DNA of 38,985 nt, from positions 1-38,985 of the forward strand of contig JABMQS010000032.1 in the NCBI GenBank assembly GCA_013202525.1. The letters are read 5' to 3'. Under the pieces are notes generated by a model, which saw only the letters and a list, made by a program, of their open reading frames with translations, did not search any database and was not told the DNA's origin. This document shows, one piece after another, positions 32,531-36,961 of this stretch. Each line of letters begins with the position of its first letter. Positions within the stretch are counted from its first letter, which is position 1. Made by a program: the position numbers and the translations under genes. The stretch is from Candidatus Omnitrophota bacterium. GTDB taxonomy: Bacteria > Omnitrophota > Gorgyraeia > JABMRG01.

Positions 32531-32675
32531 GCATAGGAACTTATACACGTTTGACTTATGCTATCAAAAGGGGGTATTTTAAAGGGGGAAATGCTTTCCC
32601 CCTTTATCGGCGCAGTAAGCTTCCCTGCGGAAGGAATAGGAATATTAAGGGAAAACCATCAGGGTTTTCCCTTAA
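32525..32675 (+). repeat. Multi-hairpin intergenic element between purH and folC
   Basis: Perfect stems: TTGATAGCATA/TATGCTATCAA (32525-32567), AAAGGGGGAAA/TTTCCCCCTTT (32581-32605), TTAAGGGAAAACC/GGTTTTCCCTTAA (32645-32675); weak CTTCC/GGAAG (32620-32633). Confidence 0.75.
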
Positions 32676-32698
32676 AAGAAAATATCCAAAGCGAAGCG

Positions 32699-32714
32699 AG
32701 GATTTTTCTTGATA
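32699..32714 (+). repeat. 16-bp direct repeat, right copy
   Basis: AGGATTTTTCTTGATA; last base is the A of the folC ATG. Confidence 0.85.
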
Positions 32715-34012
32715 TGTATTTAGAGCGTCTCATAGATTACGAAAAGCTCACCCACTATAATTATAAGTCAGCCTATAGCCTGGAGAGGGTGGAGGAGCTT
32801 CTGGAGCTCCTCGGCAATCCTCATAAGAGATTTCCTTCTGTAGTCATATCGGGAACAAAAGGAAAGGGTTCAACAGCTGCTATACTTGCTTCGATATTGA
32901 CAGCCGCGGGCCGCAAGACAGGCCTCTTTACCTCGCCCCATCTTGTCTCACTCAGGGAAAGGATAAAGATAGGTACAAGCCCCATATCCGCAGGCCAGTT
33001 TAAAAAGAATCTCTCTCTCATAAAGAACGCAGTAGAAGCCTCCGGGCTGAAAGGCCTTACCTTTTTTGAAGTCTTGACAGGAGCTGCCTTTTTATATTTT
33101 GCTGACAGGAAAATAGACGTCGCTGTCCTGGAGGTAGGCCTGGGCGGCAGGCTGGATGCGGTCAATGTTGTTGATCAGATCCTCTCTGTCATGACTCCGA
33201 TAAGCTATGACCATACACAACTCCTCGGAAAGTCTATAAGAGCGATCGCAAAGGAAAAATGCGGTATTGTCAAAAGAGCCGTACCCCTTGTAAGCGCGCC
33301 GCAGACAGAAGAGGCAGAGCAGGTAATAAGAAGCGCCGCTGTGCGTAAAGGATCAGAGCTATTTTTTACAGGCGAAGATATAGATTATAAGAATCTGAAG
33401 ATTTCAGCCTCCGGCACATCATTTGATGCGCGCATAGGCCGCCGGCGTTATAAGGATCTTCACATGCCGCTTATCGGCAGGCATCAGGCCGAAAACGCGC
33501 TTGCCGCAATTACAGCAGCCGGTATAGCAGGGGAGCGGTCAGGCCTTAAGATCAGGGAGTCGGATGTAAGGAACGGCTTGTCGCGGGTCAAGCTCGCCGG
33601 CAGGTTTCAGATCTTTTCAAAAGGCCCGTATCTGATATTGGACGGTGCGCATAATAGGGCTTCGGCTCAAGCCTTAAGCGATACATTCAAAAGGCTTTTT
33701 GGCAAGGTTTCAGTTCTTGTGTTCGGGATATCCTCTGACAAGGATATCGAAGGTGTCGCAAGGATTCTATGCCCATTGGCAGATTCGGTTATATTTACAA
33801 ATGCAGACAGTCAGCGTGCCGAGCCAGGCGCGGCATTAGCCCGGAGACTTAAGGGTTTCTGCAGGGATTGTTATACAGCCCCTGATATCAAAGATGCCCT
33901 AACATTTGCAAAGGCAATATCCGGCATGAAAGATGTGATACTGGTTACAGGTTCGTTTTTTTTAGTGGGCGAGGCACTTAAACACTTAGGAGCAAAGACA
34001 GGGAAGCTATGA
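32714..34012 (+). CDS. folC: Bifunctional folylpolyglutamate synthase/dihydrofolate synthase
   Basis: HKRFPSVVISGTKGKGSTAAILASIL; TGLFTSPHLVSLRERI; VGLGGRLDAVNVV; LDGAHNRAS. Upstream in-frame extension to 32558 crosses hairpins and is probably not coding. Confidence 0.95.
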   Translation: MYLERLIDYEKLTHYNYKSAYSLERVEELLELLGNPHKRFPSVVISGTKGKGSTAAILASILTAAGRKTGLFTSPHLVSLRERIKIGTSPISAGQFKKNLSLIKNAVEASGLKGLTFFEVLTGAAFLYFADRKIDVAVLEVGLGGRLDAVNVVDQILSVMTPISYDHTQLLGKSIRAIAKEKCGIVKRAVPLVSAPQTEEAEQVIRSAAVRKGSELFFTGEDIDYKNLKISASGTSFDARIGRRRYKDLHMPLIGRHQAENALAAITAAGIAGERSGLKIRESDVRNGLSRVKLAGRFQIFSKGPYLILDGAHNRASAQALSDTFKRLFGKVSVLVFGISSDKDIEGVARILCPLADSVIFTNADSQRAEPGAALARRLKGFCRDCYTAPDIKDALTFAKAISGMKDVILVTGSFFLVGEALKHLGAKTGKL

Positions 34013-35403
34013 GAGTAAGAGACATTGCAGGTTCAAATGATACGATAGTTGCGCTATCCACGCCGCCCGGCGAAAACGGCATAGGGATTGTGCGCCTCAG
34101 CGGCCCGTCTACCCTCGAGATAGTGGATAAGGTCTTTCTCCCGCGAAACGGTGCCAGGCTGTCCGAGTTTAAGAGCCACACCATACATTACGGACATATT
34201 GCTGATAACGGCAGGGTGATAGATGAGGTCCTGCTTATGGTCATGCGCGCGCCAAAGACATACACGAGAGAGGATATAGTCGAGGTGAACTGCCATGGCG
34301 GTGTCGTGGCTGTAAAGGAGATACTCGATCTCTTTGTCTGTGCAGGGGCACGCATAGCAGAACCGGGCGAGTTTACCAAAAGGGCATTTATGAGCGGGCG
34401 TATAGACCTTGCTCAGGCAGAGGCGGTGCTCGATATAATAACCTCGCGCACAAGCGACGGTTTGAAGATGGCACAGCGGCAGCTAAACGGTGAGACTTCA
34501 CGCATGTTAAAGAAGATCAGGTCCGGGCTCCTTGATATAATCGCGGAGATCGAGGCATTTATAAATTTTCCGGATGAAGACCTGGACATAGACAAGACAT
34601 CGTCCTTCGAGGCGGCGCTGGAAGGCATAAAGAGAGATCTTTCCGGGATCATAGATTCTTCTGACAAGGGATTGATACTCAGGGAAGGCATAACCACAGT
34701 TATATGCGGCAAACCGAATGTCGGCAAGTCCAGCCTCATGAACAGTTTCTTAAGGCAAAAAAGGGCGATAGTGACTCCTGTGCCAGGCACTACGCGGGAT
34801 ACGATCGAAGAGGTGATAAACGTAGACGGTATACCGCTTAAGATAGTGGATACTGCCGGTATTATGCACGCAGAGGATGAACTTACCAGAGAGAGCGTTG
34901 ATAGAAGCAGGCATTATATGCAGGGCGCAGACCTTATACTGCTGGTCCTCGATTCCAGCGACAAATTGAACCAGCAGGATTTAGATATTATAGATATGGT
35001 AAAGGACAAGAAGACCCTGGTGGTGATCAATAAGACCGACCTGCCGGAGGTATTGCAGATAGATAAGATAAAGAGCCACCTCCATGACAGGAAGATCATC
35101 AGGGTCTCGGCCAAAGAGGGCATGGGCCTGGATGATCTAAAAAAGGCTATATATGATATCTTCTGGAGCGGGGAGGTCACCGCAGAAAATATACTACTTT
35201 CAAATTCAAGGCACATAGAGGCTGCAAGAAGGGCATTTGAATTTGTTGAGAAGGCCCGGAGGGCTGCTGCAGAGAGAACGCCCTGGGAGATACTGGCCGT
35301 CGATATAAAAGATGGGGCCCAGGCCCTGGGGACCATTACCGGTGAGGTCTTTGACGAGGACCTGCTCGATACGATATTCAGCAGATTCTGCATAGGCAAA
35401 TAG
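34009..35403 (+). CDS. mnmE: tRNA uridine-5-carboxymethylaminomethyl modification GTPase MnmE
   Basis: [46 protein letters not shown]-terminal FCIGK. Confidence 0.98.
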
Positions 35404-35410
35404 AGGAGAC

Positions 35411-36961
35411 GTGATGGACAAGAAAAAGATTCGAAAGGCAGTAAAGGATATTATGGCAGCCATAGGTGAAGACCCTAGCAGGGAAGACCTTCGCGCAACC
35501 CCGGAGCGGGTCGCCGATATGTATGAGGAGATCTTCAGCGGAATAAAAGAAGACCCCAGGAAAGAGCTGGAGGTGATTCTAGGCGAAAAACACAGCGAGA
35601 TAGTGCTGCTTAAAGGCATACCGCTCTATTCTGTCTGCGAGCACCATCTATTGCCTTTTGTCGGCAAGGCCCATGTCGCCTACATCCCAAAAGGCGGAAG
35701 GGTAACAGGCTTGAGCAAACTGGCAAGGGTGGTAGAGATCTTGTCAAAGAGGCTGCAGGTGCAGGAGCGCCTCACAACCCAGGTGGCGGATATCATAATG
35801 GCAAAGCTGAAGCCTCTGGGGGTGCTTGTGATAATTGAGGCAGAGCATCTTTGTTATGATAACAAAACAGAACTTTTAACGGAAGGCGGATGGAAATTTT
35901 TCAAAGATTTAACCAAAAAAGATAAAGTGGGGCAGGTTGATATATTGACTCGGGAACTATCTTTTACGAAGCCAAAACATATTATATCGTATAAGTATAA
36001 AGGAAAAATGATACACGCAAAGAGCCTGTCGGTGGACTTAATGATTACGCCAGACCATAGATTCTGTTATCTTTCTGAATGGGCTTTTTATCATAAAAAA
36101 AGTGAAGATTGGCAAATCGGCCCTGCGGCGACTCTAATCGATAAATACATTGTAATCCCAAGAGCATGTGTTTGGAAAGGAAAAAAACATAAGAATATAA
36201 AAATCGGCAAACATAGATTTACTTTTGATGTTTTTGTGAAACTGTTTGGCATCTGGGTTAGCGAAGGTTGTACTACGAGTGCGGGACGGAGAAAATTTTT
36301 TGTTGTTTCACAATCCCCCCATTCTGCGCATTATGATAGCATCAAAAAGTTATTTGATGCTTTAAAAATTAAATATATTATAGCCAGAAGTGGCAGAACA
36401 GTTCAATTTCGTATTGAAGGAAATGATTTTTATCGATATTTTAGTCAGTTCGGCAAGTCTAAGGATAAATACATTCCAAGTATTATAAAAAATGCTTCAC
36501 TAGACAGTTTAAAATTATTTTTAGATTGGTATGTAAAAGGGGATGGACATATTAAGAAAAATAAAGCTTTTCATTTTGTCTCTAAGTCAGAAAGATTGAT
36601 AGATGACCTGCAAGAGATATGCGTTAAGTTAGGAATAGGTTGCACAAAGCAGAATAACAAAACTTACTTTAGGATGGAGACTCATAGGACAAAAGATGGA
36701 CAAGACAAATGGTACTCTAAGCTGATGCCGCGTAACTTTTCGGTTAAAAATTATACGGGACAAGTCTATTGCGTTTCTGTGCCCAAGGGCTTACTTTTGG
36801 TCAGGAGAAATGGAAGACTGGCGGTATGCGGGAACTGCATGTCCATGCGCGGGGTAAAGAAGCCCGGAACGGTCACCGTCACAAGCGCTGTAAGGGGCGT
36901 CTTTAAGGAGAACGCCAAGACAAGGCAGGAGGCCCTCTCTCTTATAGGCGGCCACTTTTAA
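35411..36961 (+). CDS. folE: GTP cyclohydrolase I precursor containing an in-frame intein (exteins 35411-35851 and 36836-36961)
   Basis: N-extein [42 protein letters not shown]-extein [23 protein letters not shown]; spliced product ~188 aa. Confidence 0.95.
35852..36835 (+). mobile_element. Intein with LAGLIDADG-type homing endonuclease domain (328 aa)
   Basis: Block [21 protein letters not shown]; block [11 protein letters not shown] (TxxH); DOD-like LFGIWVSEG and [10 protein letters not shown]; block [30 protein letters not shown] followed by +1 Cys; visibly A/T-richer than flanking exteins. Confidence 0.95.

Follow-up and report, generated by a model that had tools for sequence, protein, structure and literature searches.

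The window, by which we mean the whole 38,985-nucleotide stretch analysed here (Candidatus Omnitrophota bacterium, contig JABMQS010000032.1), carries a gene for GTP cyclohydrolase I (FolE, GCH-I) interrupted by an intein directly before a zinc-ligand cysteine. It is preceded on the same strand by a folC-like gene (32558-34012) and by mnmE (34009-35403). The folE start codon is GTG, and an in-frame alternative ATG lies one codon further on, at 35414. The features are as follows.

32558-35403, forward strand: folC-like Mur ligase family gene and mnmE, upstream neighbours close to folE (Pfam)
35411-36961, forward strand: gene for the FolE precursor, a GTP cyclohydrolase I with the intein inside it (516-aa open reading frame with GTG start; FolE models match in two pieces)
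35411-35851, forward strand: N-extein, FolE residues 1-147, ending in EAEHL (PF01227 profile positions 1-144)
35636-35659, forward strand: CEHHLLPF, motif with the second zinc-ligand cysteine (window Cys76, E. coli Cys110); no intein here, though Rubrobacterales have one at this site
35852-36835, forward strand: intein, 328 aa, residues 148-475 (same-site homologues, GC, predicted fold)
35852-35881, forward strand: splicing block A with the Cys1 nucleophile (conserved in all FolE inteins)
36035-36064, forward strand: splicing block B, TPDH (TxxH; T, P, H and R invariant in the alignment)
36239-36271, forward strand: LAGLIDADG motif 1, LFGIWVSEG, acidic residue intact (alignment)
36509-36553, forward strand: LAGLIDADG motif 2, acidic residue intact (PF14528, E = 9e-7)
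36758-36784, forward strand: splicing block F, including VYCVSVP (alignment)
36806-36835, forward strand: splicing block G, with the terminal Asn and a penultimate Gly, not the usual His (alignment)
36836-36961, forward strand: C-extein, 41 aa and stop, first residue the +1 Cys (PF01227 profile positions 141-178; alignment to E. coli GCH-I)

The Pfam and NCBIfam models of FolE are split by the insert, PF01227 matching with its profile positions 1-144 and then with about 141-178. When joined, the exteins form a gapless GCH-I at the sequence level and match solved structures from end to end (Listeria 4uqf, E = 8e-71), which bears out the proposal of a sequence-only reading of this DNA that the first 147 and last 41 residues of the 516-aa frame make up a complete enzyme. 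GCH-I coordinates zinc through Cys-Cys-His (PMC10882993), and the two canonical cysteines have been named in the Listeria enzyme (PMC6718149). We assigned the ligands in E. coli numbering from these two papers and from an alignment to the E. coli GCH-I sequence, itself checked against PDB 1fbx. All three are present: Cys110 and His113 correspond to Cys76 and His79 of the window, and Cys181 to the +1 residue, Cys476. The same reading had put the intein directly before this last cysteine and equated it with Cys181; the split models, the same-site homologues and the alignment agree with it to the base.

The insert is an intein of class 1 type, with Cys1 in block A, TxxH in block B, and N475 followed by C476. 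Blocks A, B, F and G, as listed in the earlier reading, all lie within nucleotides 35852-36835, and Cys1, TxxH, the terminal Asn and the +1 Cys are kept in all complete FolE intein copies. A class 3 intein is ruled out by the presence of Cys1. The penultimate His is common in class 1 inteins without being defining. It is replaced by Gly in every complete relative at this FolE site and in phage terminase (TerL), which lowers our certainty about splicing efficiency, not about class membership. Absent from the earlier description was a LAGLIDADG homing endonuclease nested in the intein, intact by motif: both motifs retain their acidic residues (VSEG and KGDG) and PF14528 scores above its cut-off. 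A match to intein profiles, proposed as a check, was obtained in part. The insert matches LAGLIDADG_3 (PF14528, 9e-7) and the solved AceL NrdHF intein (5e-4), but the score of the Pfam intein-splicing model falls under its cut-off. AlphaFold2 models the precursor with a mean pLDDT of 82, most intein blocks reaching 85-96, and Foldseek relates the extein part of the model to GCH-I and the remainder to endonuclease-bearing VMA inteins. The intein has a GC content of 35.5%, against 51.5-57.7% in the exteins.

Bacteria of at least three phyla carry the same FolE intein in the same position; most of the genomes are metagenome-assembled (MAGs). Among 384 genomes searched across the class, five other genera have it in folE, at the same codon and 65-70% identical, and related inteins occur in other proteins. 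When about 85,000 species genomes were scanned, FolE inteins turned up in seven Omnitrophota records, in Rubrobacter, in another actinobacterial MAG and in Ktedonobacteria; the Cys181 site is thus occupied in these seven records besides the window, in Rubrobacterales and in Ktedonobacteria. One ktedonobacterial intein (L071) is full-length and four others (L053, L058, L060, L061) are mini-inteins of 157-159 aa that lack the endonuclease. In the cultured Rubrobacter taiwanensis the endonuclease has decayed, both acidic residues being changed (E to G and D to E). Three Rubrobacterales sequences (L049, L072, L073) have an intein at a second site, before the Cys110 ligand of CEHH, and the 864-aa open frame of one of them (L049, 3552-6143) is interrupted at both zinc cysteines. 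The intein at the Cys110 site ends in HN and belongs to a different lineage from the one at the Cys181 site. Either zinc-ligand cysteine can thus be the +1 residue of an intein. The contig of L060 (JAJPKG010000226.1) is titled Proteobacteria bacterium, probably wrongly, since the genome collection groups it with the class Ktedonobacteria. Viruses were considered as a source of the FolE inteins and rejected: no FolE intein was found in IMG/VR, with either alignment, and the listed tblastn matches in named phages were 23-27% identical, none being annotated as FolE. A plasmid search returned nothing relevant to FolE inteins.

The histories of intein and host disagree. The exteins of the window are 85-86% identical to two intein-free FolE of the same family and 81% to a third, and 69-76% identical to the other intein-bearing FolE of Omnitrophota. 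In the extein tree (189 columns) the window groups with its intein-free relatives (95/87), and an AU test rejects a single clade of the eight intein-bearing Omnitrophota exteins (p = 4e-34). Yet the inteins of the same eight rows form one clade (100/99). Similarly, the intein of L071 groups with those of Rubrobacter (99/99), in conflict with the position of its extein. Contig ends cut short three rows of these trees (L045, L048, L051). Since the two trees disagree and the window intein is AT-rich, we conclude that the FolE intein spread horizontally, and the sequences indicate that the lineage of the window acquired it in this way, although both signs of mobility are indirect. Among Omnitrophota hosts intein GC is 30-35% against 40-58% in the exteins, whereas in Rubrobacter and Ktedonobacteria it mostly equals that of the host (L051 being lower), which suggests more recent movement in Omnitrophota. 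In the pair L043/L046 the endonuclease part evolves with a dN/dS of about 0.03, a ratio that is saturated in several of our comparisons. The silent divergence of their inteins is below that of their exteins (pS 0.56 against 0.90), which is suggestive only, as composition differs. The exteins are under purifying selection.

One might ask whether the 516-aa protein splices at all, or is instead a pseudogene, a stable unspliced fusion or an artefact of assembly. The window does come from a draft assembly and its penultimate intein residue is Gly. But the same arrangement recurs in many independent assemblies, that of cultured R. taiwanensis included, with open frames, conserved splice residues and exteins under purifying selection, and the window genome has no second FolE that we could detect. 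A non-splicing insertion is therefore extremely improbable. A splicing-competent intein, as predicted here, would carry consequences for the cell. Family searches of the window genome (93% complete) found a single FolE, found HPPK, and detected no FolE2 (GCYH-IB) that might act as a backup enzyme; tetrahydrofolate synthesis thus probably depends on splicing. That dependence had been proposed from the sequence together with the inactivity of the unspliced protein for want of a zinc ligand. The former seems likely; the reason given for the latter is too simple, because the intein's own Cys1 holds the same position in the precursor. The precursor should be inactive mainly because its last 41 residues (among them MRG and the C-terminal helix) are detached and the decamer interface is disturbed. 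In the same genome HPPK (FolK) is itself matched in two pieces, separated by a 69-nt gap within one open frame (G000:C17:30543-31046), possibly a small domain insertion. Among 14 intein-bearing genomes checked, only the actinobacterial MAG G393 has a complete second FolE: its L075 and L051 lie on different contigs and one of them is intein-free, reflecting a paralogue or contamination.

The position of Cys1 raises another possibility, namely that the intein is kept as a regulator, zinc acting as a gate on its splicing. Before splicing, Cys76, His79 and Cys1 could bind Zn2+ and so block the first splicing step, or the metal could be needed for folding. Cys1 sits exactly where the Cys181 ligand should be, and there is a precedent in the mycobacterial DnaB intein, which Zn2+ inhibits by binding its first cysteine (PMC7360933). 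The ktedonobacterial copies keep their splicing domain after losing the endonuclease, and in Rubrobacterales each of the two zinc cysteines is an insertion site. Yet homing alone accounts for the sporadic distribution and the repeated horizontal transfer, and a mini-intein would persist anyway, precise loss being rare. We find it improbable that the metal required by the enzyme also controls its maturation. If it did, folate synthesis would be tied to zinc status and inteins would have been recruited independently at both zinc-ligand cysteines. A single small, soluble enzyme now allows metal gating of splicing to be tested directly.

The closest non-FolE relatives of the FolE inteins are found in phage terminases (L116-L118, L123-L125, L171-L172). 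These are the nearest viral matches in IMG/VR, and their hosts correspond to PHROG 38 (E down to 6e-73). The whole TerL precursors gave no match to Pfam, their domain probably being cut in two by the intein, and were identified with PHROGs. In a tree with 23 other inteins, FolE and TerL inteins form one clade (99/96). This clade stays when long branches and mini-inteins are removed (100/99), the TerL inteins then standing beside the Rubrobacter-type FolE inteins (92/87). The insertion sites are also alike: TerL inteins lie in (E/T/W)xL^C-x-P-M, including (E/T)HL^C-x-P-M, and share HL^C-x-x-M with FolE. The positions of each gene were ranked by how closely their DNA resembles the folE site, ignoring the +1 codon. 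Four TerL insertion sites come within the first 0.07-0.7% of their gene and L171, the fifth, at 3.6%; the sites of 11 control inteins come at 25-93%. These similarities would be best explained by one change of target gene, from folE to terminase or the other way, at DNA sites that resemble each other. Unexpected similarity between inteins of different genes has been described for mycobacteriophage RecB and TerL (PMC5050341). Alternatively, FolE and TerL inteins might have converged on similar sites independently, without any jump between genes. Inteins do favour conserved Cys, Ser or Thr sites, and a clade made up of the FolE inteins alone is not rejected (p = 0.46). This is nevertheless an unlikely account, for trees with 18-23 other inteins unite the two families with good support, and the DNA match to the folE site is confined to TerL, the 11 controls having none.

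Related inteins in other proteins lie mostly, when the host is a metabolic enzyme, at active-site motifs. Three are in the beta subunit of a TPP enzyme, at GDGG^S, one is in a class-III aminotransferase, two in an SQD1-like epimerase and two in an RmlB-like dehydratase, at its TDE motif. In a genome of the Omnitrophota class an intein interrupts a papain-like C1 peptidase, apparently at the residue preceding its catalytic Cys (GDEGT^CVAF). A PHP-domain protein carries a related intein in several genera of this class (TGLS^SDP; four sequences); we take the protein to be EndoQ-like, and Pfam recognises in it only the endonuclease domain. Six dCTP-deaminase-like proteins, from Caldisericota and others, contain a conserved intein of 418-422 aa (EP^CWEG).

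Our best reading is that the window carries a recently mobile homing intein, predicted to be splicing-competent, and that the one GTP cyclohydrolase I detected in the cell would depend on it. The intein would be a selfish element homing into the folE codons for EAEHL^CMSMRG. Excision would proceed from a Cys1 thioester through transfer to the +1 Cys to cyclisation of the Asn, joining the exteins and leaving the zinc site of GCH-I intact, while the endonuclease would cut intein-free copies of folE. The catalytic site tolerates little change, so that the homing target would persist and imprecise loss of the intein would be lethal. The FolE intein family shares an ancestor with the TerL inteins, for which a single jump between genes at a similar DNA site would be the simplest account. 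Taken as a whole, a class-1-type homing intein in folE, gained horizontally and sharing ancestry with TerL inteins, is in our judgement very probable from the sequences.

The sequence-only reading did not count FolE among the commonly listed intein hosts. A full-text search confined to PMC found no paper on an intein in GTP cyclohydrolase I, nor relevant literature on FolE, Omnitrophota or Rubrobacter inteins. The element is an ordinary kind of intein in an apparently unreported host, with an unusually informative natural history. Of the inteins of bacteria and archaea, about two thirds reside in replication, recombination and repair proteins (PMC5874633). The FolE family has its host in vitamin biosynthesis, spans three phyla and uses two insertion sites placed exactly at the two zinc-ligand cysteines. 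It offers a natural series from an active-looking endonuclease through a decayed one to mini-inteins, and illustrates, as is rarely seen at the level of sequence, a way in which inteins may pass from one host gene to another. The compact ktedonobacterial mini-inteins are candidate splicing tools.

Compared with known systems, the joined exteins align from end to end with GCH-I (GCYH-IA; 4uqf, 1fbx) and share both Cys ligands and CEHH. Known FolE proteins are not reported in the PMC full-text literature to need protein splicing. TliVMA (7qss, 7qsu), PhoVMA (7qst) and PI-SceI (1vde) have the same two-domain layout of Hint and LAGLIDADG, but are only 11-14% identical to the window intein and interrupt a V-ATPase at another site. 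The AceL NrdHF-1 intein (6zgq) matches it across the N-terminal splicing region, but is shorter (a chain of 165 aa) and has another host. The phage TerL inteins of IMG/VR are full-length homologues, 29-35% identical, with the same GN^C end and a LAGLIDADG domain; they differ in their host, a DNA-packaging ATPase of phages where the window has a biosynthetic enzyme.
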